A stretch of DNA of 40,484 nucleotides. Source: a virus. Under the pieces are notes generated by a model. It was not told the origin of the DNA, made no database searches, and was given only the letters and a program-made list of their open reading frames with translations. Location of the stretch: positions 1-40,484 of IMG/VR virus record IMGVR_UViG_3300036820_000331; one strand, given 5' to 3'. The position numbers and the translations under genes were made by a program. Each line of letters opens with the position of its first letter. The stretch's first letter is position 1. Below, piece after piece: positions 697 through 31,440 of the stretch.

Positions 697-2391
697 GTGG
701 TCACATTCGTCGTGCCGCCGGATAACCGCAGCGTGGGCAGCGGCAACCCTCCGCAGGACGTGAACGAGCTCAGCGACATGGAGGGCCTGCTCGCCGCGAT
801 CCTCGCCGCGCAGGCAGGCTTCCCGGGTTCGACCACCGTCCCGGCAGACAACGCCACCAACGTGACCGCCCTGCAGACGCTGATCACCGGCACGTTCATG
901 GGGCCCGGCCTGCCGCCCATCGGCGGCGACGGCGACGACACCACGAACATCCAGAACCTGCTCAACCTCGCCGGGGTAGCACCCTTGCAGGTAGGCACCT
1001 TCAACTACTCGGCATCGCTGACGGTCCCGACAGCCGGCGGCCTGACCTGCCCGCTGGCTACCGAATCGTTCGGCGACCCCAGCGCCGACTACGGCGTCGG
1101 CGGCCTGGCGCTGCAGGGCGCGATCCTCAAGGCCACGGACACGTTCGCTGACGCGGACGCCGCGACCGGCACCATCATCATGACCTCGCCGGAGGGTGTG
1201 CAGGGCGGCGGCCAGCGGCTGCAGGGCATCTCCCTGGACCTGTCGAACACGCCGGACGGCAACAACCTGCACGGCATCCTCATCCAGGACAACACCGCCT
1301 GCGTGACCCTGAAGGGTGTCGTCGTCTACGGCGGCGGCGATGCGCAGCTGGGCGGCGACTGCCTGCACGCTGTGGCCGCCACATACTCCCCGCCGGACCT
1401 GCTCACCCTTGACCATTGCCATTTCGTCGGCGGCACCGGCGGCGTCACCATGAGCGGCGTCGCCGACTCCTACATCTACATGACCGAGTCGACCGGCAAC
1501 AAGAACTACGCGTGGAACATCATCAACGGGAACAACACGCGATTCGACTGCTGCAAAGGAGAGACCAGTACTGCCGGGCCGGGCTGGCTGCTGACCGCTA
1601 ACACCGGGTTCACCGGCATCGTCCACTTCTCGAATTGCACGTCACAGGGCAACTACGAGGACGGCTGGAAGTTCACCGGAGCCGGGACCGGCATTTACAG
1701 TCTGGGCAACTGCTCAGACGACGGGTCCGGCACGGACGGCGTCCACTCGGGCATGGACGTGACCAGCTTCTCCGGCACGGTCAAGGCGCCCGGGTTCATC
1801 ACCCGCGTGGCCGGCGGCAGCCCGGTCTACGGCGTGTCGATGACGGACAGCAACTCGGTGGACCTGCGGGCCGGCAACATCACCGGGGCGACGTCGCCGT
1901 ATTACAACGGCGGCGGGAACACGTCGTTTACCGGAACCGCGGCGCCTGGCGAGTTCCTGTGCACGCCCACGTCGTACACCACGACCAACACCTTCACCAC
2001 GGACAGCACCACCTACGCGGCGGTGTCGAGCGCCAATGTCAATACCGGCAACTTCACTGCCCCGCCGTCCGGTTATGTCTGGGTCGAGGCGTCGTTCGTG
2101 GTCACCGAGGCGACCGGGGCGACGGTGATCGGGTTCGCCCTCGCCGCGCACGGCGGCGTGACGCCGCTGCTCGGCGACGCGTGGCAGTGCACGCTGGCCA
2201 ATCCTTCCGTCAACGAGATTACGACCGCGAAGTTCCTGGTGCCAGTGACGCCCGGCTCCAGCTACAACCTGGACCTGCTGTTCGCGTGCACCACCAACAA
2301 CCTCACCATCAAGTCGCAGGCGTTCACTGGCGCGACCCTGACCGCCACCACCGAAGGCGGTCCGATCCTGATGACCGTCCGGGCGGTCTGA
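697..2391 (+). CDS. Phage tailspike/tail fibre protein, likely right-handed beta-helix
   Basis: This 564-residue protein has a short N-terminal segment that resembles phage baseplate or fibre anchors, then a long middle (about 95-400) rich in Gly, Asn, Thr and Ser with short repeating strands, as in pectate-lyase-like beta-helix spikes. The last ~145 residues duplicate the C-terminal domain of the preceding gene. GTG at 697 is chosen because an in-frame TGA lies at 688-690 and a GGAGAAGGAAGG run precedes it. The stop overlaps the next start (TGATG at 2389-2393). It probably contacts the host surface; whether it has enzyme activity cannot be judged from sequence alone. Confidence 0.7.
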   Translation: MVTFVVPPDNRSVGSGNPPQDVNELSDMEGLLAAILAAQAGFPGSTTVPADNATNVTALQTLITGTFMGPGLPPIGGDGDDTTNIQNLLNLAGVAPLQVGTFNYSASLTVPTAGGLTCPLATESFGDPSADYGVGGLALQGAILKATDTFADADAATGTIIMTSPEGVQGGGQRLQGISLDLSNTPDGNNLHGILIQDNTACVTLKGVVVYGGGDAQLGGDCLHAVAATYSPPDLLTLDHCHFVGGTGGVTMSGVADSYIYMTESTGNKNYAWNIINGNNTRFDCCKGETSTAGPGWLLTANTGFTGIVHFSNCTSQGNYEDGWKFTGAGTGIYSLGNCSDDGSGTDGVHSGMDVTSFSGTVKAPGFITRVAGGSPVYGVSMTDSNSVDLRAGNITGATSPYYNGGGNTSFTGTAAPGEFLCTPTSYTTTNTFTTDSTTYAAVSSANVNTGNFTAPPSGYVWVEASFVVTEATGATVIGFALAAHGGVTPLLGDAWQCTLANPSVNEITTAKFLVPVTPGSSYNLDLLFACTTNNLTIKSQAFTGATLTATTEGGPILMTVRAV

Positions 2392-5300
2392 TGAGCGTCT
2401 ACACCAGCGAGTACGAGTCCACTTACGGCGGGCCGCCGTTCCCGGAGTCCCCGCTCGATGTCGGCGTGGAACTCGACCTCGCCGGCGACTGGACCGATGT
2501 CACCACGTACGCGCTGCAGCGTGAGGGCACATCGCCGCCGATAACCATTCAGCGTGGCCGCCCGAGCGAGACCAGCCAGGCCACCCCGTCCTCGGCGACC
2601 TTCCAGCTCAACAACCGCAACGGGAACTTCTCGCCCAGAAACCCTGCCGGCGAGTACTACGGGCAGCTCGCCGTGCGCAACAACCCGCTGCGCATCTCCG
2701 TGCCGGACGCCACCACCTACCTGCGGTTCGCCGACGACAGCCAGTCCTGGTGCTCCTGCCCCGACTCCTCTGCGCTGCAGCTGACCGCAGACTTCGACCT
2801 GCGGCTCGACATGTGGCTGGACGACTGGCAGCCCTGCACCCTCGCCGGGAAGTGGGGCGGCTCGGACACGCTGTGGGCGTGGTGCCTGACCCTCAACGGC
2901 GACGGCACGGTCACCCTGACCTGGTACGACGGCACCGACGTGTGGGCCGCCCAGTCCACCGTCCCCCTGCCCTACCTCGGCCGGATCATGGTCCGCGCGA
3001 CGCTCGCCACCCTCGGCGCCGGCCTGGTGACGTTCTACACCGCCCCGGACATGGCCGGCGCGCAAACCGAACTCGGTGACGTCATCACCGTCGAGGGCGC
3101 CTCCGGAGCGCAGAACGCCGCCACCCAGGCCGTGCAAGTGGGTTATGTGGACGGGTTCCTCGGCCAGTCCTCGCCATCGGGCAGCTCCGGGTGCCTCGGC
3201 AAGGTCTACGAACTCCAGCTGTACAACTCCAGCGGCACACTCGTCGCCGGCCCCCAGTTCTACAACGCCACCGCCGGGGCCTCGAGCTTCACCGACGCCG
3301 AGGGCAACACGTGGACCGTGGAAGGTTCGGCCACCTTGTCGGCGCGGTCTTTCCGGGCGCACCTGGAATGCTCGTCCCTCCCGCAGCAGTGGGACGAGAC
3401 CGGCACCGACGTGTGGACCCCGGTCGGCGCCAGCGGCATCCTGCGGCGCCTGCAGCAGGGCAACTCGCCGATCTGGTCGGTGATGCGCCGCGGCGTCACG
3501 TCCACGATCGCCTCGGTCTGGGGCGTGCTGGCCTACTGGCCGTGCGAGGACTTCCAGGGCAGCACGTCCATCGCTTCCGGGCTGGCCAATGGCTCGCCGA
3601 TGCTGTTCTCCGGCGCCCCCGCCTTCCAGGGCACCGCCGGGTCCCTGTCCGCCGACAGCGTGTTCGCGTGCTCGGCGCAGCTCGCGCAGCCCAGCAGCTC
3701 AACGTGGTCGTTCTCCATCCCGCGGCACACCCTGCAGACCGTCGGCGACACGGTCTACTTCCTGCTTGACGTCGACTCGGGCGGCATCTCCGCGGACTGC
3801 ACCCTGCTGGCCCTGAACTACGCCAGCGGCCAGCAGATCACCATCACCTATGCGACAGCCACGGACGGGAGCCTGGGCGTGTCCGGGCCCGGGATCGGCA
3901 TCGACGGGCCCACCAACGTCAACGGCGCGGCGCTGTGGTGCTCGTTCCAGAGCAACGCCGACGGCATCACGCTGAACGTGCTGCCCGTGGGCGAGACGGT
4001 TCCCACCGCCTACACCGGGGACACCGGCATCAACCGGACCGTCCTGTCCGGCACGGTCAACCCCGGCGGGGCGAACCTGGCCGGCACCGAGGCCGGGCAC
4101 CTGTGGGCCAGCGCCGCCGGGCCGTCCATCGAGGGCTACGCGGACCTGCTGAACGCCTACAACGGCGAGACTGCCGCGGCCCGGTTCTCCCGGCTGTGCG
4201 GCGAGAACTCGATCACCGCCCGCATCTACGGCTTCCCCGACGTCTCCGCGATCATGGGCCCGCAGGAGATCGACACCCTCGGCAACGTGCTGCAAAGCGT
4301 GGAGGATGCTGACAGAGGGCAGATCTACGAGCCGGCGGAGACCCTGGGCCTGGGCTACCGCACCGTGCACTCGCTGTGCGCCCAGAGCCCGGCCATCACC
4401 CTGGACTACACCCAGGGCGTGTTCGGCGGCGACGGGTCACAGGGACTCGTGCCCACCGATGATGACCAGTTCACGCAGAACGACGTCACCCTGAGCAGGA
4501 ATAACGGCAGCAGTTACCAGTACCAGGTCACCTCCGGGCCCATGTCGATCCAGGAGCCGCCCAATGGTGCCGGGGACTACGCCACCAGCCTGACCGTCTA
4601 CGTCCAGTCGGACGCCCAGCTGCCGTACATCGCCTCCTGGATGGCGTCGGTGGGGACGTGCGATGAGGAACGCTACCCGAGCGTCCCGCTCAACCTCACC
4701 CGGCCGCAGCTCGCCAGCCTGTTCTACGCCATCCAGGACGTCCGGATCGGCGACTACGTGCAGATCCTCAGCCCGCCCTCGTGGCTGCCGCCGGGTGACA
4801 TCAGCCAGCTGGCCTACGGGGTAACGGAGCAACTCGGCGGCTACTTCTGGTCCCTGGCGTGGAACGCGGTGCCTGAGACCCCCTACGAGGTGGCGATCGC
4901 CGGAACGGACGCCAGCGACTCGGCGCACGCTGACACTGAGGGTTCCGAGCTCGCGGGCTCCTATGACGCCACGGCCACATCCCTGTCGGTGGAAACCACC
5001 GAGGGGCCCATCTGGACCACCGACGGCGGCAGCGGAGCCGGCCAGCAGTCCATCGTGCCGCTCTACTCCTACCCGCCATCGGATTTCTGGGCCGACGTCA
5101 CGGCAAACGCCCCCACGATGGCCATGATCGTCTGCAACGTCGACAACGGCCCGGGCACGGAGACCGAATCCAACTTCGCGGCCGTCTTCGAGGCCGCCGC
5201 GGCGGCGGGGATCACCTGCCTGGGCTACGTGCCCACCGGTTACGGCGCCGACACCATCGCCTCGATCGAGGCGCAGATCGACCTGTGGGAAACCTACTAC

Positions 5301-5900
5301 GGGATCGTCAGCATCAACTTTGACACGGTCAGCCCCGACGAGGCGTACCTGTCCTACTACGAGGAACTGGCCGGCTACGTCCACGGCCGCGGCGGCATCG
5401 TGGTGCTCAACCCCGGCGCGATCCCGGCCGAGGGCATGATGAGCATCGGCGCCGACGTGGTCTGCGTGTGCGAGGACAGCCAGGCCAACTTCGCCACCGA
5501 CGCCGCGGCGGCCCCGTCGTGGCTGTTTGACTACCCGGCCACCAGCATTGCCGTGACCTGCAACCAGTGCTCCACCGACGCCGAGATGGTCACCGTCGTG
5601 GGCCTGAGCCAGTCCGCGTTCAACGCGCACTACTGCTGGGTCACCGCCGACGCGATCTACGGCGCCGAGCCGTCCTACTTCGCCGATGAGGTGACCGAGC
5701 TCGGCTACGCGCCCGGCGGCGGCGGCGACTTCCCGTTCGACATCCTCATCGGCGGCGAGCAGATCACCGTGAACGACATCACCGGGGACGCCTCGCCGCA
5801 GACGTTTTCAGTAATTAGGTCGGTGAACGGTGTCTCCAAGTCCCAGGCCGAGGGCGCCGCCGTGGCCCTGTTCCATGCGCCAATCGCGGCGCTGAGCTAG
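2391..5900 (+). CDS. Large minor tail protein with LamG-like and spherulin-4-like domains
   Basis: The protein has 1169 residues from ATG at 2391, which overlaps the upstream stop by one base. The frame continues upstream inside the previous gene, but that part is a shadow reading. Residues ~1-110 resemble the N-terminus of actinophage minor tail proteins (duplex of beta strands with a QLNNRNGNFSP-type motif). Residues ~110-330 look like a LamG/concanavalin-like beta sandwich. Residues ~885-1105 match the spherulation-specific family 4 (GH135-like) pattern: VPLYSYP start, a VDNGPG turn, GYVPTGYG, a FDT segment with D978, and CED with E1028. In characterised relatives the barrel carries an Asp-Glu pair; here the second residue is Thr, so activity is uncertain. 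It probably binds or trims host surface glycans at the tail tip. Confidence 0.75.
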   Translation: MSVYTSEYESTYGGPPFPESPLDVGVELDLAGDWTDVTTYALQREGTSPPITIQRGRPSETSQATPSSATFQLNNRNGNFSPRNPAGEYYGQLAVRNNPLRISVPDATTYLRFADDSQSWCSCPDSSALQLTADFDLRLDMWLDDWQPCTLAGKWGGSDTLWAWCLTLNGDGTVTLTWYDGTDVWAAQSTVPLPYLGRIMVRATLATLGAGLVTFYTAPDMAGAQTELGDVITVEGASGAQNAATQAVQVGYVDGFLGQSSPSGSSGCLGKVYELQLYNSSGTLVAGPQFYNATAGASSFTDAEGNTWTVEGSATLSARSFRAHLECSSLPQQWDETGTDVWTPVGASGILRRLQQGNSPIWSVMRRGVTSTIASVWGVLAYWPCEDFQGSTSIASGLANGSPMLFSGAPAFQGTAGSLSADSVFACSAQLAQPSSSTWSFSIPRHTLQTVGDTVYFLLDVDSGGISADCTLLALNYASGQQITITYATATDGSLGVSGPGIGIDGPTNVNGAALWCSFQSNADGITLNVLPVGETVPTAYTGDTGINRTVLSGTVNPGGANLAGTEAGHLWASAAGPSIEGYADLLNAYNGETAAARFSRLCGENSITARIYGFPDVSAIMGPQEIDTLGNVLQSVEDADRGQIYEPAETLGLGYRTVHSLCAQSPAITLDYTQGVFGGDGSQGLVPTDDDQFTQNDVTLSRNNGSSYQYQVTSGPMSIQEPPNGAGDYATSLTVYVQSDAQLPYIASWMASVGTCDEERYPSVPLNLTRPQLASLFYAIQDVRIGDYVQILSPPSWLPPGDISQLAYGVTEQLGGYFWSLAWNAVPETPYEVAIAGTDASDSAHADTEGSELAGSYDATATSLSVETTEGPIWTTDGGSGAGQQSIVPLYSYPPSDFWADVTANAPTMAMIVCNVDNGPGTETESNFAAVFEAAAAAGITCLGYVPTGYGADTIASIEAQIDLWETYYGIVSINFDTVSPDEAYLSYYEELAGYVHGRGGIVVLNPGAIPAEGMMSIGADVVCVCEDSQANFATDAAAAPSWLFDYPATSIAVTCNQCSTDAEMVTVVGLSQSAFNAHYCWVTADAIYGAEPSYFADEVTELGYAPGGGGDFPFDILIGGEQITVNDITGDASPQTFSVIRSVNGVSKSQAEGAAVALFHAPIAALS

Positions 5901-8665: not shown

Positions 8666-8920
8666 CTACCGGTCCGGTACCGCCGCAAGCGCGGAGTGGA
8701 GCTGCCCGGACGTGAGGCCGCCGGGCGGGAACGCCTGCCACATCTCCCACGCTGCGACGTGCCTCGGGAAGCCTGCGCGCAGCCGGGCGCGGTTGCCCGG
8801 GTCGGCCTTCTCGATCAGCCGCAGCAGGTCCCCGGTGAACGAGGTCACATCGCCGCCGAGGGCGAGGCACAGTTCGTGCCACGTCTTAACCGGGTGGTCG
8901 CCGGGGAGGACGCTTTTCAC
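8666..8920 (-). CDS. Uncharacterised small protein, end of the leftward transfer operon
   Basis: The gene encodes 84 residues from GTG 8920, which overlaps the upstream stop in a GTGA junction (8917-8920). The sequence is mixed helical with Leu- and Ala-rich segments (DLLRLIEKADPGNRARLRAG), no Cys motif and no membrane segment. The TAG at 8666-8668 ends just before the RHH-operon promoter. Tight coupling to the DUF2637 gene suggests a role in the same module. No family is recognised. Confidence 0.6.
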   Translation of the reverse strand: MKSVLPGDHPVKTWHELCLALGGDVTSFTGDLLRLIEKADPGNRARLRAGFPRHVAAWEMWQAFPPGGLTSGQLHSALAAVPDR

Positions 8921-10080
8921 CGGACCGCCTCCTGCGTTCCGCTGTCGCCGTACGCCTGCCGCAGAAGTTCGCCCGCGGTGTCGCGGGACATGCGGACCCG
9001 CAGCCGCGCGGCGAGCTGCAGGGCGGGCAGCCGCTTGCCGTCGTTCTCGCGCTCGTAACGCTCGATCGCTGCCTTCACCCGGTTGGCGAGAACCTTCGGG
9101 TTGATGTCCTTGGTCTCGGGCCAGTCGCTGCCTTTGGCGCTGCCCTGGCGGGTGCGGCGCGGCGTGCCGCGGCGGGTGCCGTCTGTACTGCCTTCTGCCG
9201 TGCCCTGAGCGGTGCCTCCAGCAGGTGCCGCGATGGCTGCCTTCTCGCGCCTCAGCCGTGCTGCCGCCCGCTCGGGAGCGGCAAGCGCGTCAGTGACCCA
9301 CTGCTCCGCGGGCTCGGCGATGGCCGGCCGGCCGTAGGTGGCTGCCTCGCACGCCTGGGCAACCTCGGCTGGCAGCGTGCCGTTCGTCAGATGGTGACGC
9401 AGCACCGCGGGCGCGTGCCGCTTCCACCGCCGGCCAAGGCTGGCGCGGGCCACGTCGATGGCCAGCAGCCGCGCCTCTTCCCTCGCCACGGCCACCGGGT
9501 ACGAGGTGATGTTGTGCACCACCATCCGCTTGCGCATGCCCAGCGTCCGCACCGGCTCGGCCACCCAGCGGGCCAGCGGGATGCCGTCCTGCCGCTCGGC
9601 GCGCTTGCGGCGCAGCTTGCGCCAGCGGGTCAGCTCGAGGAACGCGATCCACGCGCAGGGAGCGGACACGTGCAGGATGATCCCCAGCCAGTCACGCGCC
9701 GGCGCACCGTGGGCGTTGACATAGATGGTGAACACGCCCGCAGCCCACGCCAGCGCCCGGGGCACCAGATCGGACCGGCCGTCATCGATCGCCTTGCGGG
9801 CCTCGATGGTGAACCCGAGGAACAGGGCGTCGAACAGCAGCGGGTAGAGCAGCGGGTTGCCCGGCATGTGCTGGGCAACCGCCTCCGCCCTGATCGTCTG
9901 GAAGCTGACCGAGAAGCCGATGCCGGCGATCAGCAGCAGCAGCGGGTTCTCGGTGAACAGGCTCCATGCGGCACCCAGCCGCGCGTGCTTCGGCGTAGCC
10001 ATGCCGTCCATGGTGACCTCTCGCTCGGCGGGGGGCGGGGAACTTGCCCCGTCTGGGTGTTGCGTGGGACTGGTGTGCAT
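8917..10080 (-). CDS. DUF2637-like membrane protein of actinobacterial conjugative elements
   Basis: ATG 10080 (one-base overlap with the upstream stop) gives 387 residues; a longer frame exists but reads through the upstream gene. After ~35 polar residues come hydrophobic segments (about 45-60, 75-92, 105-122, 130-145), with the ENPLLLLIAGIGFSVSF and HAPARDWL-type features seen in DUF2637 proteins of Streptomyces plasmids and AICEs. The C-terminal half is soluble: a basic region, a Gly/Thr/Arg-rich linker (about 290-330) and a helical end with a LQLAARLRVRMSRDTAGELLRQ segment that looks like an HTH. This links a membrane domain to a possible DNA-binding end. Such proteins are often encoded beside Tra/Spd transfer genes; molecular function is not established. 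Confidence 0.6.
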   Translation of the reverse strand: MHTSPTQHPDGASSPPPAEREVTMDGMATPKHARLGAAWSLFTENPLLLLIAGIGFSVSFQTIRAEAVAQHMPGNPLLYPLLFDALFLGFTIEARKAIDDGRSDLVPRALAWAAGVFTIYVNAHGAPARDWLGIILHVSAPCAWIAFLELTRWRKLRRKRAERQDGIPLARWVAEPVRTLGMRKRMVVHNITSYPVAVAREEARLLAIDVARASLGRRWKRHAPAVLRHHLTNGTLPAEVAQACEAATYGRPAIAEPAEQWVTDALAAPERAAARLRREKAAIAAPAGGTAQGTAEGSTDGTRRGTPRRTRQGSAKGSDWPETKDINPKVLANRVKAAIERYERENDGKRLPALQLAARLRVRMSRDTAGELLRQAYGDSGTQEAVR

Positions 10081-10772
10081 CAGTGCACCATCCCGGCGAG
10101 ATGCCAGCCGAGCCACCCGAGCCCCAGCAGCAGCGACGGTGCGACCACGCAGTTCTCCCGCCAGGTGCCGGTAACGAAGGCGACCGGGCGCGGCAGGCCG
10201 TAGTGGCGCAGCGTCCAGGGCCACGCCAGCGGGCAGCCTTCCACCGTCAGCATGTCGCCGAGAATGTGCACGAGGCAGCCCAGGCCGCAGGCGAGCGGGA
10301 TCAGGATCATGTGCCAGCCGGTCACAGCTGCTGCGGAAGCGGCACCAAGGGCGGCTATGTCAGCCACGTGGCCATGAACGCGGAACGCCCGCAGTCCCGC
10401 AGCGATGGCCAGGGCCAGGAACAGGGCGAGAAGCACGAGCGCGGCGTCCAGCCACCACAGCGAGTCCCATGGATGCGCGCCGAACAGCGTGGCCAGGGCT
10501 GCGTAGCCCGTGAACACAGCTACGCCCAGCAAAGAGTGAGTGCCATGCCGGTGGCCGCCGCTGACCTTCTCCACGTACCAGGCGAAGCCCTCGGACAGAA
10601 AGCCCAGCGAACGGGCCGCGCATGAGCCCACACAGTCCAGGTCGGGCAGGACTGCGAAGCAGGCCGTGAAGCCAGTCAGCGCGAGCGCGGGAACCAGCGA
10701 CAGGTGCAGCCCGAACTCGGCCACGGCCAGCCCGGTTGCCGCTCCGCTCAGAGCATGATCGCGGCCGAGCAT
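10080..10772 (-). CDS. DUF457/YdjM-type membrane-bound metal-dependent hydrolase-like protein
   Basis: The chosen start is ATG 10772 (GGAGGG upstream), giving 230 residues beginning MLGRDHALSG; the longer reading frame overlaps other genes. The family signature is clear: an N-terminal H-x6-8-G segment, DLD after the first helices, the HRHGTHSL motif, and HILGD followed by CPLAWPW near the end, with about five membrane helices between. These His and Asp residues suggest a metal site. Members are common in phages, plasmids and host chromosomes, and their substrate is generally unknown. The stop overlaps the DUF2637 start. Confidence 0.8.
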   Translation of the reverse strand: MLGRDHALSGAATGLAVAEFGLHLSLVPALALTGFTACFAVLPDLDCVGSCAARSLGFLSEGFAWYVEKVSGGHRHGTHSLLGVAVFTGYAALATLFGAHPWDSLWWLDAALVLLALFLALAIAAGLRAFRVHGHVADIAALGAASAAAVTGWHMILIPLACGLGCLVHILGDMLTVEGCPLAWPWTLRHYGLPRPVAFVTGTWRENCVVAPSLLLGLGWLGWHLAGMVH

Positions 10773-10773
10773 G

Positions 10774-11022
10774 TCAGGATGCCCTCCACGCTGGCTCGCC
10801 GTCGCCAGCCAGACGGTCGGCGTGCTCGTCTCCGCACCAGCACTCGCCGGCGTCGTGGTTACGGGGCTCGGGGCATTCCCCCGAGCGCTGCGCAGGCGCG
10901 GGTTCAGTGCCAGGCATTCTGCCGGTGACGCGGGCCCAGGCAAGGCAGCCGAGCAGGAACAGGACGGCGGCGGCGGCCAGGCAGCCCCAGGCGGCGAACC
11001 AGGCCTCGGCGGTGGGATTCAT
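10774..11022 (-). CDS. Small membrane protein with Cys-rich tail
   Basis: ATG 11022 overlaps the upstream stop in an ATGA junction (11019-11022). The 82-residue product has one hydrophobic helix (about residues 9-29), then a polar tail containing a C-P-E...C-W-C-G-D-E-H segment that could bind a metal ion. Its stop lies one base before the DUF457 start. It belongs to the same operon as the GIY-YIG gene. No family is recognised. Confidence 0.6.
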   Translation of the reverse strand: MNPTAEAWFAAWGCLAAAAVLFLLGCLAWARVTGRMPGTEPAPAQRSGECPEPRNHDAGECWCGDEHADRLAGDGEPAWRAS

Positions 11023-11633
11023 GAGGCACGCTCCGATGGTCGCCTCTGCTGGCAGTAAACGGCGGTGGCTCTCGCCACGTCCTGGCCCGGTACCGGGCGG
11101 TAGTAGCCGCGGCCGGGGTGAACGACGGCGCCCAGCTGAACTAGGGCAGTGAGGAGTTCGTAGACCAAGGTCTTGCACAGACCCGACTCCTCCAGCAGGC
11201 GCTTGGGCGTGATTCCTGTCTCGGCAGCGTTGATAAGCGCTTGCGCGAACAGTCCGAAGCGGTCGGTCACTGGCGGCTTCGGCGCGCTAGGCCTGGGGGG
11301 TGCCAGCGGACGGCGAACCGGAAGGGGCACGGCCCGCAGCGGGGCGTTCTTGTGCGCGAGGTTGTACTTCGGCCGCTCCACGAAGATCGCGCGGCGCTCG
11401 GCCGCAAGAGCCCGGACCTCGTCGGGGAACCACTCCAGCGTGATACCCCGGACCTCCAGGAACCAGATCTTCTGGGCGTGCTCCGCCAGCCGACGCCCCA
11501 AGTTCCCGGTGGTACCGACATATAGCAGTTGCCCCCCTTCGCTGAAGCAGCGGTAGACGGCCTGCGAATCGGCATCGAACACCGGCGTCGGCGGGGGTTG
11601 CCCTGCGTTAGTCGCCGGACTCAGTGCCCTCAT
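11019..11633 (-). CDS. GIY-YIG nuclease-like protein with C-terminal winged helix
   Basis: The protein has 204 residues. Residues ~24-95 fit a GIY-YIG domain: AVYRCF (Y27), LLYVGTTGNLGRRLAEH (Y38, G40, R47), E79 as the metal ligand position, and N91 in KYNLAHK. All residues usually needed for cleavage appear present. A Pro/Arg-rich linker (~100-122) leads to a winged-helix domain (~125-192). That domain is visibly homologous to the end of the FtsK/TraB-like protein encoded upstream: TGITPKRLLEESG here against QGISPKQLKNESG there, and GRGYYRPVP against SRGLYRPMP. The two proteins may therefore bind the same DNA site. The intergenic GGACAA cluster lies directly before this gene. Confidence 0.75.
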   Translation of the reverse strand: MRALSPATNAGQPPPTPVFDADSQAVYRCFSEGGQLLYVGTTGNLGRRLAEHAQKIWFLEVRGITLEWFPDEVRALAAERRAIFVERPKYNLAHKNAPLRAVPLPVRRPLAPPRPSAPKPPVTDRFGLFAQALINAAETGITPKRLLEESGLCKTLVYELLTALVQLGAVVHPGRGYYRPVPGQDVARATAVYCQQRRPSERAS

Positions 11634-11655
11634 TCATCACTCTCCGTGATTGTTG

Positions 11656-11779
11656 GCCGAGGACAAGGCCTTGTCCTCGGCGCTATCCACGCATTGTCCC
11701 TGGATATCCCTGGACAATGCCTCTCGCGCGCCTACGTACGTACAGGCCCCCACGGGCGCCCCTGCTTGTGCATGGACAA
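11656..11779. repeat. Cluster of inverted repeats built on GGACAA/TTGTCC, candidate transfer or regulatory locus
   Basis: A perfect 26-base palindrome occupies 11656-11681 and contains GGACAA and TTGTCC. A second inverted repeat pairs GCATTGTCC (11691-11699) with GGACAATGC (11712-11720) around a GGATATCC centre. A fifth GGACAA lies at 11774-11779, and a TACGTACGTA palindrome at 11733-11742. So five copies of one hexamer occur within about 120 bases between the translocase and GIY-YIG genes. In Streptomyces plasmids the TraB translocase recognises short repeats at the clt locus. This cluster is a candidate equivalent, or an operator; terminator function is also possible. Confidence 0.6.
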
Positions 11780-11794
11780 ACGCGCGCACAATCG

Positions 11795-13948
11795 TCACCC
11801 TGCGTTAACGGTCTCGCGGGCCTCGGCGAACAGCCGCGCGGCCTCGGAGTCAATGGCGGCCATGGCCCGGCGCAGGTCAGCGTCCGGCATCGGCCGGTAC
11901 AGCCCGCGGCTGATCTGGGTGACCGCCTGCATCTTGATCAGTTCCCCGAGACGGCTGTGAACCCAGCTGTTACTGCGCCCAGACTCGTTCTTGAGCTGCT
12001 TGGGGGAGATGCCCTGGTCAGGGGCGGACTCCAGGGCGATGATGAACCGCTCGATCTCGGTGCGGATGATGCGCCCAAGATCGCTGCGAGGCTGGATGGC
12101 AGGCTCCATTACTCCCGAGTAACTAGCGGCCAGTTCCTCGTTCATCCGCGCCGCGGCCTCGGCCGGGCTGCCAAGGCCGGGCTCGGAAGCGACAGGGACC
12201 GCCGCGGCGCGGGCCTGCTCGGCGATGGCCGACACGGCGGCGTGCGCCGAAGCGGGGGACTCGGCGGCCAGGATCGCCGCGTACTGCTGGTACTGCGGCG
12301 AGATGGCGTGGAACGCCGGGTCCAGACGCGACCAGCGGCTGTCCCACCACTGCTGCCAGGTGACGCCGGGGATGGGGGAGGGGTCGCTGCCGCACCACAG
12401 CCGCAGCGGCCGCCGGTCGCCGAGCAGGCGCGCGTTCTGTGCCCCGATCTTCCTCAGCAGCGAGTGCGGCATGTGCGGGGAGCGGATCTGCTGGACCGGT
12501 GCCTTCTCGCCGTCCTGGGTGTAGCAGGTGCCCTGCTCGTCCAGCTTGGAGGCGTCCAGCCTGGCGTACTGGGAGATGCAGTACTGGCCGTGCCGCGCCT
12601 CGGCGACCCGGTAACACGTCCGCCACGGCAGGTTGCCCCGGATCTGCTCCGACCCGACCGAGGTTTCGAGGCTGCCGTGCTGGGTGTAGACCCAGGTGTA
12701 GATCTCGACGCTGTTGCCCTGGCTGGCGATCGTGCCCAGCATCGTGCGGCACTCGGGATCCCCGGCCGCATCCTCGGTGGCCGTGAGGTCGTGCGTCTCG
12801 TCGATCTTCAGGAACAGGGCCGGGGTGTCCTCGTCGGCGTAGCCGTGCTGGTCGCCCGTGTACCAGTTCTTCTGCCGGGCCGCGTTCTCGGCGACAAGCA
12901 TCCGCTCGGTCATTCGCGCTTCGTCTATGTCCGTCACCACGTAGTCAACGGCGCCGGCCTCGAGGAGCGGGCGCGCGGACCGGCCGCCCTTCAGGTCGAT
13001 CAGGATCACCCGGGCGTCCATGCAGCCGGACAGCTGGGCCACGGCCACCAGCAGGTCATTCGACTTCCCGGACTGGGTCACGCCGTTGGTGAAACGGTTG
13101 CCCTTCGCCGACTTCATGACCCACTCGCCGGTCTCGCTCACGCCGAACTCCAGCGGCTCGTGCACCGACTTCGGCGCCAGAGCCAGGTCGAACTTGACGA
13201 TCTCGGCGAGCGGGTTGCGGCGCTTGAAGTACAGGTCGAACCAGGACGGGTGACCCTTGACGGTCTCGACCCGGATCATGCCGATGTCGGCCAGCGCTTC
13301 CCGGTCGGGGTGAGTGTCGCCTGCGGTCTCGATCAGGTGCATGGCCTGGTCGAAATGCTGCTTCGAGTGCCGCCCGGGGATGCCCTTGACGCGGACCTTG
13401 GTGGTCACGCCCATCGGCCACACGTCGGAGACGTGCGAACCGCCCAGGGACCAGTTCCAGCAGTGCGACTGCCACCACTCGTCCCACCGGCCGACCAGCT
13501 TCTGCCGGCGGCGGTGCCCGCGGGGCCGCTTGTGGCGGTACCAGGCGATGCCCCAGCCCAGGAGGAACACGATGAGTGTGCCAGTGGCCCAGACGTTGAA
13601 CGGCGTGACCTTCGCGGCCAGGGCGAGCCATGCGGACAGCAGGACGGCCGAGACCACGGCGAAGACCTGCTCGGGGCGCCGGTCCCACTTGTGCGGCGCG
13701 ACGAAGGACACGGCGAGGATGGCGCAGGCACCCGCGATGATGACGTACGGCGCCCAGTGCAGCAGGTGCAGGCCGAGGCCGGCCACCCACAGCACCGGCA
13801 GCAGTACCAGGGGCGCGGTCCAGTGACGCCGGGTCCAGATCCACCGGTAGGCAGGGACCTTCGGGTCAAGGTCCCGGTCGGGCTGCCACGGCGGCCGGGT
13901 GGCCACCAGGGGCGCCGCCGGACGGGGGACAAGTTCCTTGCCTGGCAT
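11795..13948 (-). CDS. FtsK/SpoIIIE-type DNA translocase (TraB-like conjugation ATPase)
   Basis: The protein has 717 residues from ATG 13948 behind GGAGGT. Four hydrophobic segments (about 46-60, 68-84, 95-112, 120-137) anchor it in the membrane. The motor domain has Walker A at 289-296 (GVTQSGKS) and Walker B ending in D383-E384 (ALFLKIDETHDL). The last ~75 residues form a winged helix with GISPKQLKNESG and SRGLYRPMP, in the place of the FtsK gamma or TraB clt-binding domain. In actinobacteria such proteins pump double-stranded DNA between cells without a relaxase. Chromosome-segregating FtsK is much longer. The surrounding small membrane proteins, VirB2-like protein, DUF2637 protein and upstream KorSA-like regulator support conjugation over a purely phage role. 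Confidence 0.85.
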   Translation of the reverse strand: MPGKELVPRPAAPLVATRPPWQPDRDLDPKVPAYRWIWTRRHWTAPLVLLPVLWVAGLGLHLLHWAPYVIIAGACAILAVSFVAPHKWDRRPEQVFAVVSAVLLSAWLALAAKVTPFNVWATGTLIVFLLGWGIAWYRHKRPRGHRRRQKLVGRWDEWWQSHCWNWSLGGSHVSDVWPMGVTTKVRVKGIPGRHSKQHFDQAMHLIETAGDTHPDREALADIGMIRVETVKGHPSWFDLYFKRRNPLAEIVKFDLALAPKSVHEPLEFGVSETGEWVMKSAKGNRFTNGVTQSGKSNDLLVAVAQLSGCMDARVILIDLKGGRSARPLLEAGAVDYVVTDIDEARMTERMLVAENAARQKNWYTGDQHGYADEDTPALFLKIDETHDLTATEDAAGDPECRTMLGTIASQGNSVEIYTWVYTQHGSLETSVGSEQIRGNLPWRTCYRVAEARHGQYCISQYARLDASKLDEQGTCYTQDGEKAPVQQIRSPHMPHSLLRKIGAQNARLLGDRRPLRLWCGSDPSPIPGVTWQQWWDSRWSRLDPAFHAISPQYQQYAAILAAESPASAHAAVSAIAEQARAAAVPVASEPGLGSPAEAAARMNEELAASYSGVMEPAIQPRSDLGRIIRTEIERFIIALESAPDQGISPKQLKNESGRSNSWVHSRLGELIKMQAVTQISRGLYRPMPDADLRRAMAAIDSEAARLFAEARETVNAG

Positions 13949-14349: not shown

Positions 14350-15183
14350 TCAGTGGCCCCCGCTCTCCGACAGTTCGGCGGTGTTGGGGATCTGCCTGCC
14401 GGTGCGGACGTGATCGCCAACGGAGCCGTTGATCAGCGAGTGGAGGTTGGCGTCGGACTCACTCAGCGCCTGCGCCGTGGCCCGCATGTGCGTGCCGGCC
14501 TTGGACAGCGGCTCGGTGATCTCCGGGCCGTAGTGGGCCTCAGCGAGGGTGCGGGCCAGCATCTGGGCCATGTCGGCGAACCGCAGCGCGCCTTCGTGAG
14601 CGGCCTTGATGGCGCCGTGCTTGGCGAAGATGCCGCCCGACGCTGCGCTGTTGTGAACCTGGTTGACGCCTTCAACCAGCTTCTCTGCGCTGCCTGACGA
14701 AGTGGTGCTGGCCATGGCCGTCTGCCTTCCGTTGGATTGCCCGTTCGTTGCCGGTGATGCAGGTGCAGGAGGTGCGGGGGGTTTGAGGGTCACCGCCGCC
14801 GGCGCCGGCGGCGGGGAAGTGCCGCCGGCACCCTGGGCCTTCGGGGCTGGCCACATCGCGCCGCGGAGCTTGCGCACACCCCTGCCGGTGGCCCGGGCGG
14901 CGCGGATCGTCTTGCCGGGCGGGGGAGACGTCCCGTGCTCGCGGTGGTGGCGCATCTGCTCGAGCCAGTTGGCCGCCTGGGCCTGCGCCCAGATCTTGCG
15001 GACATCATCCTTGCCGGGTTTGCGCAGGCTCCGCCGGCTGCCTCTCGGTGCGCGGTGCACTGCCCTCGGCCGGCGCGCCGCAGCCGGGGAAGGTGCACCA
15101 GCGCGGCGGACGGTCCCGATGGCGTGCAGCAGAATCGCGGCGCAGACCAGCAGGATCGCGACGTAGAAGATGTCATGTCCCAT
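14350..15183 (-). CDS. Transfer-operon protein with one membrane helix and a Pro/Ala-rich linker
   Basis: This 277-residue protein has an N-terminal hydrophobic helix (about 5-22), a very basic stretch (about 25-60), a Pro/Ala/Thr-rich linker (about 120-150) and a C-terminal helical domain (about 165-270) of SAEKLVEGVNQVHNS / FADMAQMLARTLAEAHYG character. The layout resembles structural partners of conjugation ATPases, with a cytoplasmic helical domain tethered to the membrane. Spacing to both neighbours is only 2-3 bases. Function is inferred from context. Confidence 0.6.
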   Translation of the reverse strand: MGHDIFYVAILLVCAAILLHAIGTVRRAGAPSPAAARRPRAVHRAPRGSRRSLRKPGKDDVRKIWAQAQAANWLEQMRHHREHGTSPPPGKTIRAARATGRGVRKLRGAMWPAPKAQGAGGTSPPPAPAAVTLKPPAPPAPASPATNGQSNGRQTAMASTTSSGSAEKLVEGVNQVHNSAASGGIFAKHGAIKAAHEGALRFADMAQMLARTLAEAHYGPEITEPLSKAGTHMRATAQALSESDANLHSLINGSVGDHVRTGRQIPNTAELSESGGH

Positions 15184-15186
15184 TGG

Positions 15187-15642
15187 TCAGCCTCCAAGCG
15201 CGCGGCCGATGGATTCCACGGCCTGCTGCGCGGGGTAGGTGGTGTAGCTGTAGATCGAGTGCATGAAGCCACCCGGGACCAGGGCCAGGATCAGCGGTGT
15301 CACGACCGCGATGTAGGCGGCGAACATGTCCGGGGCCCAGACCAGGCAGACGAACACCGCGGCGCACATCAGCAGCGACCCGATGACCACGGCAGACCAG
15401 CCGATGCCGCTGCTGAACCCGCCCGCGTACCCCCCGGCCCATTCCAGCCTGCCGACAACCCAGGCGCCGACCGGGGTGAGGATCAGCGCCGCGCCCGCCG
15501 AATACATCAGGACGATCAGCAGGCGCCGGATCCACGGGTGCGTCATCCCGGGCAGGTGGTGCATGTACATCGACACCACGACGCACAGGCCGATCACGAT
15601 GACCGCAGCGCCGTCGCCGAGCAGCCCGCTCAGGGTGGCCAT
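15187..15642 (-). CDS. Multi-spanning membrane protein of the transfer operon
   Basis: ATG 15642 overlaps the upstream stop in an ATGA junction and gives 151 residues; a longer frame runs through other genes. Four hydrophobic segments are visible (about 7-27, 40-60, 70-95, 98-120), with a MYMHHLPGMTH loop and a short polar end. It lies directly after the VirB2-like gene and may be a channel or VirB3-like companion. That analogy is positional only. Confidence 0.6.
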   Translation of the reverse strand: MATLSGLLGDGAAVIVIGLCVVVSMYMHHLPGMTHPWIRRLLIVLMYSAGAALILTPVGAWVVGRLEWAGGYAGGFSSGIGWSAVVIGSLLMCAAVFVCLVWAPDMFAAYIAVVTPLILALVPGGFMHSIYSYTTYPAQQAVESIGRALGG

Positions 15643-15887
15643 CAGGAATGCACCCCCAGCGCCGCGGCGATGCCGGTGGCGAGCACCTCGATGATCTGGG
15701 GCGTGTAGAACACGATCGCCACCCCTACCGCCAGGACAATGAACTCGGCGAACTTTGTGATCTCCCGGCGGAACAGGAAGACCACCGCCATGATGCCGAT
15801 GGTGCCCAGCAGCAGCGGGGCGATCAGGGCCTGCAGGTAGGTGACGAGCGGCTGCGTGGTGAAAGCGGCAGCGAGGATCACGGGCAC
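15642..15887 (-). CDS. Small two-helix membrane protein, VirB2/TrbC-like layout
   Basis: GTG 15887 lies close behind GAGGGAAG. The 81-residue protein has an N-terminal segment, then two hydrophobic helices (about 20-40 and 48-70) separated by a charged loop (RREITKFAE). This matches the size and topology of VirB2/TrbC pilin-like subunits found in actinobacterial conjugative operons, though no cleavage signal is obvious. It is the first gene of the block that includes the translocase. Similar small holin-like proteins have the same shape, so confidence is moderate. Confidence 0.55.
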   Translation of the reverse strand: MPVILAAAFTTQPLVTYLQALIAPLLLGTIGIMAVVFLFRREITKFAEFIVLAVGVAIVFYTPQIIEVLATGIAAALGVHS

Positions 15888-16014
15888 CTTCCCTCGCTTG
15901 AGGTGATGACCCCGGCCGGAGCGGTGAATGGGGCAAGGGTGCGCCAGCGCTCCGAGAGCATTGGTTTGTAGTCACACCCTGGCGCGCCCCGGCCGGGGAG
16001 GCTTGAGTAGGCGT
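15888..16014. promoter_or_regulatory. Intergenic region with inverted repeats between WhiB and the transfer block
   Basis: GCGCCAG (15941-15947) pairs with CTGGCGC (15979-15985). CCCCGGCCGG occurs at 15910-15919 and again inside a perfect 12-base palindrome at 15987-15998. These could form a terminator after the WhiB gene and contain control sites for the next block. No clear promoter hexamers stand out. Confidence 0.35.
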
Positions 16015-16428
16015 TCACGCGACCGCCTTAGGCTGGTGGTGGGCTATGTACCACTCGTGCTGGCAGGTCCTGCAGAACGGGTTGCCCCGGTTGTTCGTGC
16101 CGGTGTTGGAGTTGGTGCGCAGGTGGAGTCCCTTGCCGCAGTAACCCTCCCGCCGCACCCGGGGCGTCCGCTCTCGCTCGACCCGCTCCCGCTGCTCGGG
16201 GGACAGGCCACCCCATACACCGAAGCGCTCGCCGTGTTCCAGCGCGTACTCAAGGCATTCGGCGCGCACCGGGCACGCGGCGCAGAGGCGCTTCGCGGCG
16301 TTGGGGTTGGCGCCGGGCTCGGGAAAGAACGCCTCCGGGTCGGCGTCGGCGCAGAGCGAGCGGGCCATCCAGGAAGGGCCAAGGTTCTCAGCCAGCGACA
16401 GGAATTCTGTGATGCCAGCAGGACTCAT
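16015..16428 (-). CDS. WhiB-family regulator with extra C-terminal zinc-ribbon-like part
   Basis: The protein has 137 residues. The WhiB core is complete: C26, then C49-x2-C52-x5-C58 for the 4Fe-4S cluster, and GVWGG at 70-74. WhiB proteins bind the sigma factor and act as redox- or development-linked regulators; phage versions can shut off host genes. An unusual extension (about 95-137) contains C97, C119-x2-C122 and H124, which could bind zinc. ATG 16428 overlaps the upstream stop (ATGA). It is one of the first genes of the leftward operon, next to the presumed transfer genes. Confidence 0.9.
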   Translation of the reverse strand: MSPAGITEFLSLAENLGPSWMARSLCADADPEAFFPEPGANPNAAKRLCAACPVRAECLEYALEHGERFGVWGGLSPEQRERVERERTPRVRREGYCGKGLHLRTNSNTGTNNRGNPFCRTCQHEWYIAHHQPKAVA

Positions 16429-17041: not shown

Positions 17042-17076
17042 TGCGGCCTGCCCTCCCAGACTCCTGCCTTGCTGTG

Positions 17077-17159
17077 TTGCTGTACAAGCAGTGTCACACC
17101 ATGCAGGCATGGATGTCAAGGCACGCATTGCTGTACCGTGTTAGCAGTGCTGACACTGC
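17077..17159. promoter_or_regulatory. Divergent promoter/operator region between RHH and GntR genes
   Basis: TTGCTGTAC is directly repeated at 17077-17085 and 17128-17136. A perfect inverted repeat GCAGTG-CTGA-CACTGC lies at 17144-17159, and GCAGTGTCA (17088-17096) is inverted relative to TGACACTGC (17151-17159). On the minus strand, TTGACA at 17114-17119 is a good -35 for the leftward operon, though the matching -10 is weak. The layout suits control of both directions by the GntR protein, as KorSA does in pSAM2. Confidence 0.6.
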
Positions 17160-17172
17160 CGGAGGAGCAGGG

Positions 17173-17553
17173 GTGAACGTGATCGCCGGGCCGTCGTGGG
17201 ATGTCATCGCCAAGGACATCCGCGGCAAGATCGCCTCAGGCGAGTACCCGGCCGACGAGGCGATCCCCTCCACGACACGGCTCATGGACCACTACGGCGT
17301 CTCCAAGGGGCCAGTCCGGCAGGCAGTCGAGGCACTCAGGACCGAGGGCCTCCTGGCCGGCCGGCCCGGCAAAGCTGTCTACGTAACCGGCGCACCCGTC
17401 GCCGATGAGACGGGCGAGCTGCCCGGCTGGGCCCGCAAGATCCAGGAAGACATGGCCGGCATCAAAGCCGACATCGCCGAGCTCCAAGGGCAGCGCGGCA
17501 TGACGAGGCGGCCGGCGCGGAAGCAGGAGCGCGGCAATGAGCAGTCCGGCTAG
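17173..17553 (+). CDS. GntR-family regulator, KorSA-like
   Basis: GTG 17173, five bases after GGAGGAG, gives 126 residues; the longer frame runs through the promoter region. The N-terminal winged helix is typical of GntR: VIAKDIRGKIASGEYPADEAIPS, then LMDHYGVSKGPVRQAVEALRTEGLL and a GKAVYV wing. The short C-terminal part is helical and basic, with no effector domain. Streptomyces integrative elements use such short GntR repressors (KorSA, TraR) to silence transfer genes. Its divergence from the transfer operon fits that role. Confidence 0.8.
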   Translation: MNVIAGPSWDVIAKDIRGKIASGEYPADEAIPSTTRLMDHYGVSKGPVRQAVEALRTEGLLAGRPGKAVYVTGAPVADETGELPGWARKIQEDMAGIKADIAELQGQRGMTRRPARKQERGNEQSG

Positions 17554-21241: not shown

Positions 21242-21500
21242 GCTTCTCGACCGTATCGGGCCATTCATTTTTATTTCGGACATAGGTCCCCATTCCGGCA
21301 CTCACATAGGCGTATTTCTCGTCCCGCAGTTTCCGGAGCGCCTTGCGAGCCGTCAGGCGTGCGACGCCGGCGTCTTGCGTGATCCAGTCGGCTGACGGCA
21401 GCCGCGCGCCGGGTTCCAGCCGCCCGCTGGTGATCATTTCCCGCAGCTGATCCGCGATCTGCACGTACGGGGGCAGCGAGGACGCCCGGTCGACTTCCAT
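21225..21500 (-). CDS. Short GntR-type winged-helix regulator
   Basis: ATG 21500 gives 91 residues: PPYVQIADQLREMITSGRLEPGARLPS, then an HTH with LTARKALRKLRDEKYAYVSAGMGTYVR. It contains only the winged helix and a short basic tail. A longer frame upstream lacks a good start. The overlap with the convergent gene (21225-21241) means the two 3' ends are antisense to each other. Its target is unknown; the gene to the right has a divergent orientation. Confidence 0.7.
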   Translation of the reverse strand: MEVDRASSLPPYVQIADQLREMITSGRLEPGARLPSADWITQDAGVARLTARKALRKLRDEKYAYVSAGMGTYVRNKNEWPDTVEKPKRQS

Positions 21501-24239: not shown

Positions 24240-24556
24240 GCAAGGCAGTCAGGGCATGGCGCGGCGCGGCGCGGCCTGGCCGGGCGGGGCGACGCGAGGC
24301 GAGGTACGGCTGGGCAGTCTTGGCGAGGTTGGGCGGGACTGGGCAGGGCTGGACTTGGAATGGCATGGCCCGGCGGGCACGGACTGGCATGGCGAGGATA
24401 GGCATGGCCCGGCAGGTGCGGCATGGCAGGGCATGGCTCGGTTGGGACGGGCAGGGTGGGGCACGGCGCGGCGGGGCAGGCGTGGCGCGGCTCGGCCTGG
24501 GAGGGCGGGGCGTGGCGCGGTCCGGCGTGGCTGGGCGCGGCAGGCCTTACAGCGAG
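24240..24556 (+). repeat. Five-base-period GG array, upstream copy
   Basis: For about 300 bases the plus strand can be cut into five-base units in which GG recurs at a constant phase (units such as GGCAT, GGCGC, GGCTG, GGCAG), with occasional phase slips. Bases between the GG pairs vary widely. The strand is very G-rich and poor in A. The period of five is incompatible with codon structure, and the open frames through it are by-products of few stop codons. A similar array lies on the other side of the next gene. Confidence 0.7.
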
Positions 24557-24570
24557 AAAGGAGTTCTGCA

Positions 24571-25269
24571 ATGGCAACCACCAAGGTTCGCCTGACCGAC
24601 TTGGTCGAGGACTACGACCTGTATCCCCGGCACGCCGTGGACGGCAGCTATGTCGCCGAGCTTGCGAGAGCGATCACGGCTGGCGACAAGTTGCCCTCCC
24701 CGATTGTGGAGCGCAAATCCAAGCGCATCGTTGACGGCTTCCACCGCGTCCGGGCCTACCGTAAGGTTCTCGGCCGCGGCGGCGAGATCACCGTCGAGAT
24801 GCGCACCTACCCATCCGAGACCGAGCTTCTCAAGGAAGCGATTGCGCTCAACGCGACCCACGGGCGCAAGTTCGATGCGCAGGACAAGACGCGCTCAGCG
24901 CTCATGCTCGAACGCGCCGGCGTCCCTGTCACGGAGATCAAGGTCGTGCTGCACACCACGGAGGAGCGCGTCCGCGAACTGCTGGCCCGCGTCGTCATCG
25001 TCAAGCCCGAGAAGGAGAACGCCGCCCCGGAGAAGTGGCCGGCCAAGCCGGTCATCTACCCGGGCAAGGGGCAGCCGCCGCGGGAAATCACCGAGCAGCA
25101 GCATTCGGTGATGGAGTCCTCATCCGGGCACCGGACGGCGCAGACGGTCACGCAGCTAACCCGCGAGATTGAGTCCGGGCTGATCGACTTCACGGCACCG
25201 GGCGTCGCCGAGAAGCTGTGGAAGCTGCACGACTCGATCGAGGCAACGGTCCCGGCTGTCGCTGCGTGA
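24571..25269 (+). CDS. ParB/Srx-like N-terminal domain protein
   Basis: ATG 24571, seven bases after AAAGGAG, gives 232 residues; the longer open frame upstream is only the GG array. Residues ~8-105 resemble the ParB-N fold: DLYPRHAVDGSYVAELARAI, PIVERKSKRIVDGFHRVRAY with the DGFHR signature at 55-59, and an ALNATHGRKFDAQDKTRSALML segment. A helical region with ITEIKVVLHTTEERVRELLARV follows, which may be the DNA-binding part. ParB-like proteins bind or cleave DNA and may use CTP. Its position between two GG arrays suggests they could be its binding sites. Confidence 0.75.
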   Translation: MATTKVRLTDLVEDYDLYPRHAVDGSYVAELARAITAGDKLPSPIVERKSKRIVDGFHRVRAYRKVLGRGGEITVEMRTYPSETELLKEAIALNATHGRKFDAQDKTRSALMLERAGVPVTEIKVVLHTTEERVRELLARVVIVKPEKENAAPEKWPAKPVIYPGKGQPPREITEQQHSVMESSSGHRTAQTVTQLTREIESGLIDFTAPGVAEKLWKLHDSIEATVPAVAA

Positions 25270-31285: not shown

Positions 31286-31440
31286 GAAAGCTCCTTGCGA
31301 TGGCAGCGACGACCCGGCGAGGAGGACAGCTACCGGGTGGTCACTAACCGGCGCTCTGCGGCGCGTCTCCCTGTTGCCAGTCCGTGTCCCCGGAAGGGCC
31401 GGGGGCGGTGGTGTCATGCTGGCCGTTTTCCGGCTACCGC
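31286..31440 (-). ncRNA. Candidate bridge RNA region of the IS110 element
   Basis: The non-coding end upstream of the transposase can form a hairpin on the minus strand: GCCAG/CTGGC (31376-31380 and 31419-31423) around an inner stem CCCCGG/CCGGGG (31388-31393 and 31399-31404). The internal loop between them holds GTGTCATG (31411-31418), the exact reverse complement of CATGACAC at the left insertion flank (30010-30017). It also holds AGTCCGT (31379-31385), which matches AGACCGT on the right flank (31444-31450) at six of seven bases. This is what a target-binding loop would show. Full folding was not computed. Confidence 0.6.

Follow-up and report, generated by a model that had tools for sequence, protein, structure and literature searches.

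A GIY-YIG nuclease and a TraB-like translocase with a shared C-terminal winged helix in a phage record

Why does a GIY-YIG endonuclease carry the same kind of DNA-reading domain as the DNA translocase encoded next to it? The question is raised by the IMG/VR virus record IMGVR_UViG_3300036820_000331, a stretch of 40,484 bases that was analysed over its whole length. It is referred to here as the window, or as W where it is set beside related loci and elements, which have L-numbers. It is a phage record. On its minus strand lie a gene for a TraB-like translocase, an array of short repeats and a gene for a GIY-YIG protein. TraB-type transfer is reported to need one transfer protein and a cis-acting transfer locus (clt) (PMC4170104, PMC3583192). 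An earlier note, made from this DNA alone, proposed that the translocase and the nuclease form a two-part system that cuts and pumps DNA at one site. Here, we find that the C-terminal domains of the two proteins are homologous, that such a pairing occurs a second time in Streptomyces phage-plasmids, and that the reader of the nuclease is not clearly matched to the translocase of its own element. The features that carry the argument are the following.

11795..13948, minus strand: TraB-like DNA translocase of 717 amino acids (open reading frame (ORF), AlphaFold2, Foldseek).
11879..12088, minus strand: C-terminal winged helix of the translocase, residues about 621-690 (AlphaFold2 model, alignment, profiles).
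11634..11794, no strand: candidate clt, with five GGACAA/TTGTCC sites at 11661, 11671, 11694, 11712 and 11774, some of them as palindromes.
11019..11633, minus strand: GIY-YIG endonuclease of 204 amino acids with a C-terminal translocase-type winged helix (PF01541, E 1e-6, above the cut-off; PHROG endonuclease, 1.6e-15; reader similarity).
11361..11558, minus strand: GIY-YIG catalytic domain (PF01541 domain).
11064..11261, minus strand: winged helix of the nuclease, residues about 125-190 (profile and BLASTP similarity).

Both ORFs were found where the earlier note had placed them, and their GC bias at third codon positions (GC3) is of the coding type. The translocase, in its last ~75 residues, and the GIY-YIG protein, at residues ~125-191, have domains of one winged-helix family, which are identical at 27 of 63 positions (43%; BLASTP E 2e-12). 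The alignment that the note had seen by eye is real: GISPKQLKNESG and GITPKRLLEESG are present, as are SRGLYRPMP and GRGYYRPVP. Profile-profile comparison of nine translocase and two nuclease C-termini gave a probability of 98.2 and an E of 2.7e-14, which answers the note's own reservation that the domains might prove unrelated. Local alignment of the two C-termini scores 120, and none of 5000 shuffles scored above 49. A profile made from nine translocase domains only, run against 4994 ORF segments from 42 loci, recovered, along with the translocases, two nucleases, that of W at E 1.3e-18 and that of L004 at E 2.5e-7; the next-ranked matches were marginal (an antisense ORF of L007, E 0.0077, and a plasmid GIY-YIG protein, E 0.012). 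Judged from sequence, the two C-termini are related beyond doubt. Generic helix-turn-helix similarity was discarded as the whole explanation, with GntR controls and another GIY-YIG tail reaching only 0-18 bits against the nuclease readers, and a recent duplication within the window was discarded at an identity of just 43%. A search with the nuclease tail among named phages and plasmids returned nothing convincing (best E 0.3-0.4).

The AlphaFold2 model of the translocase, based on an alignment of 9 sequences, has a predicted local distance difference test (pLDDT) value of 78 overall. Its C-terminal domain, with a pLDDT of about 90, is an ordered winged helix composed of helices 621-640, 649-656 and 660-672 and strands 676-680 and 683-686, of which helix 660-672 is presumed to be the recognition helix. 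Long helices in the N-terminal region, 33-162, look membrane-spanning. The structural check that the note had suggested was informative for this protein only, the nuclease model being too poor for use (pLDDT 34). The best Foldseek matches are TcpA of pCW3 (6o1w, E 1.7e-15), which resembles the translocase in its motor at 15% identity, and FtsK motors; the strings GVTQSGKSN and FLKIDE occur in the sequence, and we take them to be Walker-type motifs of the motor. The predicted structure is that of an FtsK/HerA-type motor fold. Because no Pfam family matched the translocase at E 0.1, FtsK_SpoIIIE included, we describe it, from sequence and model, as working like Streptomyces TraB and claim no formal FtsK_SpoIIIE membership. 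HerA complexes also appear, at Foldseek ranks 32-50, and could point to defence against phages by a pair of the HerA-nuclease kind. PADLOC, however, gave no match for the translocase and only weak PDC-S14 matches for the nuclease (E 0.017), the nuclease is usually absent, and the long N-terminal helices, the Spd-like neighbours and the arrays described below indicate transfer, so that a defence pair is very improbable.

Close relatives of the translocase are found in L003-L007 and L010 (35-52% identical to that of the window) and in L039 (46% identical to that of L004), while L014, L015, L019 and the Thermobifida phage P1312 have more distant ones. The counts below are given for eight close elements (W, L003, L004, L005, L006, L007, L010 and L039) and these four distant ones. 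Rows for duplicate contigs were left out of the counts (L002/L005/L032, L003/L008/L031, L004/L009/L020/L038, L006/L011/L029, L007/L012/L030 and L014/L033), as were L013, which is truncated and has ORFs as in L010, and L016-L018, which are distant and whose downstream gene was not read. These relatives were met only on viral contigs. Among named phages there was no close homologue (query P0002), and two scans of genome contigs, each with only two short peptide patterns, gave no relative. Fourteen plasmid records match part of the translocase, with <60% identity; of the nine inspected (H1, H2, H6-H9 and H12-H14), one, H7, has an annotated GIY-YIG gene close to its translocase.

An array of short motifs follows the stop codon of the translocase in 9 of the 12 elements, and its motif is element-specific: GGACAA in W, GCGAAC in L005, GGACAGT in L003, GTGGAC in L004, TGGAGGA in L010, TGGACTC in L006, TGGACA in L007 and TGAGACA in L014. 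The ninth, L039, which was not part of the shuffle test, has GTGGAA four times behind its translocase. The other eight elements have 5-6 motif copies in a 250-bp stretch, where the remainder of the locus would predict 0.00-0.23, in a count for which the motif of each element was picked after the fact. In dinucleotide shuffles (300 per element), the best 6-mer count, which is five in W, was reached in none for W, L003, L004, L010, L006 and L007, in 2 for L014 and in 11 for L005. Other stretches of the same locus equalled the array count in 27/663 cases for W, 14/173 for L005, 13/162 for L004, 24/211 for L014, 3/289 for L006, 3/290 for L007, 0/182 for L003 and 0/224 for L010. In the window, the array lies exactly at 11634-11794, where the earlier note had placed the site, and has an alternating core at 11720-11740 inside its repeat sites. 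An alternating GC-step core between repeat arms is conserved in the relatives. The strand polarity of the repeats around the core was too mixed to claim.

In pWTY27, the clt comprises 16 bp inside traA and an adjacent 159 bp, with 7-bp repeats that are footprinted by TraA, and TraB of pSVH1 recognises 8-bp repeats through helix α3 of its winged helix (both as described in PMC3583192). Judged by sequence, the arrays have the anatomy of the pWTY27 clt. The array at 11634-11794, with short repeats beside a tra gene, is thus a candidate clt-like site. Repressor operators or replication iterons would also suit an intergenic position ahead of the next gene and the palindromes. This alternative we consider rather unlikely: the window has 14 GGACAA/TTGTCC sites, none of them near the start of the GntR gene (17074..17553), the array stays behind the translocase whichever gene comes next, and a GC-rich alternating core would be unlike an unwinding element. 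In the complete genome of Thermobifida phage P1312 (L021 6183-6340), the translocase is followed by GTCAC/GTGAC repeats and a DUF2637-like protein, both recognised by eye; the repeats are not significant and the DUF2637 search was negative.

The nuclease carries Y27, Y38, R47, E79 and N91, which we take to be the GIY-YIG catalytic residues. Only W and L004 have a nuclease gene between the array and the gene that follows, which makes 2 of the 8 close and 0 of the 4 distant elements. The gene of a YdjM-like hydrolase comes next after the array in L007, and in W the nuclease gene stands between the two. GIY-YIG genes occur elsewhere in the records of L006, L010 and L039. By this distribution the nuclease is an accessory and no required part of the putative transfer module. 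The nucleases of W and L004 are identical at 54 of 76 positions in the catalytic part and at 24 of 58 in the reader, as expected if targets change fast. Free-standing GIY-YIG homing endonucleases, such as I-TevI and those of the Seg type, have a GIY-YIG domain and a separate DNA-binding tail and are scattered patchily between genes. To judge from its domains and its patchy presence at one intergenic place, the window nuclease has these traits; it differs in that its tail is a translocase-type reader and in that homing is only proposed. Another GIY-YIG protein, encoded at 1240-2049 on the plus strand of L041, in the record of L039, has a C-terminal GntR domain and adjoins two ORFs with GntR domains, so that its reader again is like that of a neighbour.

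In the two-part system of the earlier note, the nuclease and the translocase would read the same array, where the nuclease would nick or cut and from where the translocase would pump. In W and L004 the genes are adjacent, with readers of one family, and the array lies between them. The note had also named what would speak against its proposal, namely absence of the nuclease gene beside nearly all homologous translocases, and the gene is adjacent in only 2 of 12. TraB systems, moreover, transfer without processing (PMC3583192). The readers themselves do not form clear pairs. The reader of the W nuclease scores 56 bits against the translocase of L005 and 50 against its own, or 50.4 against 53.5 with composition correction, which is a tie that depends on scoring. 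The reader of the L004 nuclease scores 31 bits against its own translocase and up to 35 against others (L007/L014), and, as shown below, none of three phage-plasmid nucleases matches its own. These comparisons give no clear match between the nuclease reader and the translocase of its element, and joint action at one site is improbable. What stands of the note's comparison with TraB is the C-terminal winged helix, the motor fold and the array. The note knew of no described conjugation system of the form that it proposed; transfer without a relaxase is in itself nothing new, being the known Streptomyces mode (TraB/clt).

The note had also suggested a search for other mobile elements with such a pair, and an independent combination of a GIY-YIG domain with a translocase-type reader was found in three Streptomyces phage-plasmids. 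One of them, from Streptomyces sp. NBC_01259, has its nuclease gene two genes behind that of the translocase; the encoded protein belongs to the T5orf172/MUG113 branch (PF10544, E 3.1e-5; T5orf172 was named by Pfam for this nuclease only). The tail of this nuclease shares 46-47% identity with the translocase tails of other phage-plasmids, with Smith-Waterman scores of 172 and 183 against shuffle maxima of 52 and 48, whereas the score against its own translocase is 27, equalled by 715 of 3000 shuffles. A search with this tail, which we call the type-A reader, returned 48 plasmid records, all from Streptomyces and with one place per record. Among the 40 of these 48 records that were listed, the place is annotated as a translocase or transfer protein in 14, as GIY-YIG in 3 and as hypothetical in 21, and has no feature in 2. 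H99, H106, H117, H118, H125 and H133 were inspected among the 48, and the records of H98, H111 and H116 were reached by other routes.

The three GIY-YIG nucleases (NBC_01259, NBC_01590 and NBC_01723) are mutually 48-58% identical. In six other records, type-A translocases are 31-59% identical to these readers (35-102 bits), and none of the readers matches the translocase of its own element. The DNA 3' of the nuclease genes behaves in the same way: it is like the DNA 3' of type-A translocases, with best scores of 187, 135 and 63.5 bits, and scores 0 bits in all three cases against that 3' of the element's own translocase. This likeness holds for 3 or 4 of the 6 type-A flanks for two of the nucleases and for 1 of 6 for the third. 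Reader and 3' flank are thus those of a type-A locus, in an element that relies on a different translocase. The combination of a GIY-YIG domain with a translocase reader seems to have arisen at least twice, in two nuclease branches with two reader families. A terminase gene is near the translocase in L056, L058, L065 and L067-L071. Tandem AGGGAC(C/T) repeats occur behind the type-A translocases of L071, L070 and L069, with an AGCGACC variant in L068, and no AGGGAC pair was found in the stretch tested behind the three nucleases; at 3 of 6 loci, the cases are too few for the AGGGACC-type direct repeat to be taken as a clt.

Recombination in or near the reader could by chance have given a resident GIY-YIG gene a translocase tail, in which case the job of the nuclease would be unrelated to transfer. 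The joint movement of reader and 3' flank in the phage-plasmids suits such passive mosaicism, and so do other GIY-YIG proteins with GntR or other tails (L041, S. tubercidicus). It accounts less well for two GIY-YIG subfamilies that were independently paired with two translocase readers and for a reader that is kept as intact winged-helix sequence, the wing GxGYY being among the positions common to the nuclease readers of W and L004. We regard this explanation as unlikely.

The minus-strand block at 8.9-16.4 kb of the window, which encodes WhiB, proteins of no known family, the translocase, the GIY-YIG protein, a YdjM-like hydrolase and a DUF2637 protein, looks in its gene content like a Streptomyces transfer module. 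Besides the translocase and the nuclease, the following genes belong to it or stand beside it.

10080..10943, minus strand: YdjM-like membrane hydrolase (PF04307, E 1.3e-19); a look-alike, compared by eye, lies directly behind the array in L006 and L007.
8917..10224, minus strand: DUF2637 protein (PF10935, E 5.4e-17), which we take to be a Spd-like membrane protein of Streptomyces plasmids.
14350..15183, minus strand: 277-residue protein of the upstream module (ORF, coding-type GC3), with a look-alike, by eye, ahead of the translocase in L004, L005 and L010.
15187..15975, minus strand: hydrophobic protein of the same gene block (ORF and GC3).
16015..16428, minus strand: WhiB-like regulator, first in the module (PF02467, E 2.3e-24).
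17074..17553, plus strand: divergent GntR regulator (PF00392, E 2.7e-13).

A second ORF with a GntR-type domain lies at 21279-21470 (minus strand). Eleven records were compared for gene content: the window, nine IMG/VR records and Thermobifida phage P1312. The DUF2637 gene is found in 8 of them, the window included, a portal family in 6 and phrog_5313 (PHROG 5313) in 3. In the window, phrog_5313 is matched by the gene at 1635-5900 (plus strand; E 9.6e-182), which we read as tail-type, PHROG itself giving no named function; the C-terminal end of its protein has a Spherulin4 domain (PF12138, E 1.1e-28). RecE-like and RecT-like recombination genes lie to the right, with an IS110-family transposase gene (30032-31417, minus strand) between them. 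A ParB-like partition protein (24256-25266, plus strand; phrog_1033, E 1.7e-9) hints at a plasmid-like lysogenic state. The window was not classed as an actinomycete integrative and conjugative element (AICE), for which integrase, Rep and tra were taken as the test; PF00589 is absent from the window record, possibly a fragment, and present in 4 of the 11 records, serine integrase and Rep were not searched, and phage tail genes are present.

The window would thus be part of a temperate-type actinobacterial phage with a TraB-type conjugation module. From the anatomy and from TraB, we infer that the translocase is seated in the membrane, that its C-terminal winged helix reads the clt array behind its own stop codon, that it pumps double-stranded DNA, and that the membrane proteins which follow it have a Spd-like role. 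The GIY-YIG protein would be a mobile, patchy endonuclease which, having a reader of the translocase family, would be aimed at clt-type DNA and would most likely cleave related phages or phage-plasmids at their transfer locus, with the outcome that the nuclease and the linked module are copied into them (homing) or that they are excluded. We infer cleavage, target and benefit; reader homology, placement, patchiness, intact catalytic residues, the second pairing and the mismatch of the phage-plasmid reader to its own translocase were observed. A mobile nuclease directed against the loci from which related elements transfer, and acting through homing or exclusion, fits best, with our confidence evenly balanced, and is placed ahead of chance mosaicism, which in turn is placed ahead of a joint machine. 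It is favoured because two nuclease branches have joined two reader families and because the phage-plasmid nuclease would recognise the site of another transfer type. A wider claim is that conjugative phages and phage-plasmids harbour a recurrent class of clt-directed endonucleases, GIY-YIG nucleases that have captured a translocase reader time and again and cut loci of that transfer type, so that the elements attacked are excluded or have their transfer module converted to the one with the nuclease; it is put forward tentatively and with some doubt.

Several observations weigh against this explanation. The readers of W are about equally close under either scoring, so that a shared site is possible there. 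Both nucleases lack the tryptophan that opens the recognition helix and is conserved in the 7 close translocases aligned, and may read something else. The arrays of L015, L019 and P1312 are not enriched in the dinucleotide-shuffle test, and the correlation between motif and recognition helix is weak (Mantel r 0.42, p 0.09, 8 elements), so that a motif which tracks the helix is only suggested by these sequences. In the phage-plasmids, one nuclease flank (L056) is also like the flank of the non-type-A translocase of L058 (73.4 bits), and the one place per record may reflect a single locus that the nuclease and the type-A translocase share by mosaic exchange, with no targeting. The pair of empty and occupied targets required by homing was not found.

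The module is like the TraB/clt systems of Streptomyces (pSVH1, pIJ101 and pWTY27) in its FtsK-like motor, its C-terminal winged helix, the repeats right after the tra gene, its Spd-like genes and a transfer for which a relaxase is not needed (PMC3583192, PMC4170104, PMC5133688). It is unlike them in that it is phage-borne, with a translocase too distant in sequence for Pfam FtsK_SpoIIIE, in that its arrays have an alternating GC core, and in that a GIY-YIG nuclease with a related reader is sometimes present. Phage genes together with a tra locus are also found in pZL12 and in the Streptomyces phage-plasmids of ~90 kb. Zhong et al. 2010, by its title, reportedly deals with the transfer of the Streptomyces plasmid-phage pZL12. 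The translocases of the Streptomyces phage-plasmids differ, being about 23-28% identical to that of the window, and their nuclease is of another GIY-YIG subfamily, with a reader of another family. Endonucleases with a fused winged helix that senses N6-methyladenine are described (PMC11037411). In the open PMC literature, searched by titles and the openings of abstracts, we found no report of a GIY-YIG nuclease that shares its reader with a conjugative translocase, a weak negative since most subscription papers were outside its scope. The recurrent pairing of nuclease and reader would thus be new, whereas relaxase-free transfer of double-stranded DNA is already known from TraB/clt (PMC4170104, PMC3583192).

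If this explanation is true, soil actinophages would have two ways to spread, as particles and through TraB-like conjugation, and would compete at the transfer site itself. About nine pairs of reader and array are available for studying how TraB-type winged helices choose their DNA. The nuclease would then be a testable one whose aim comes from the borrowed reader of a machine with a neighbouring site, and with such a pairing a mobile element may be able to attack another, or to invade it, at the transfer site.

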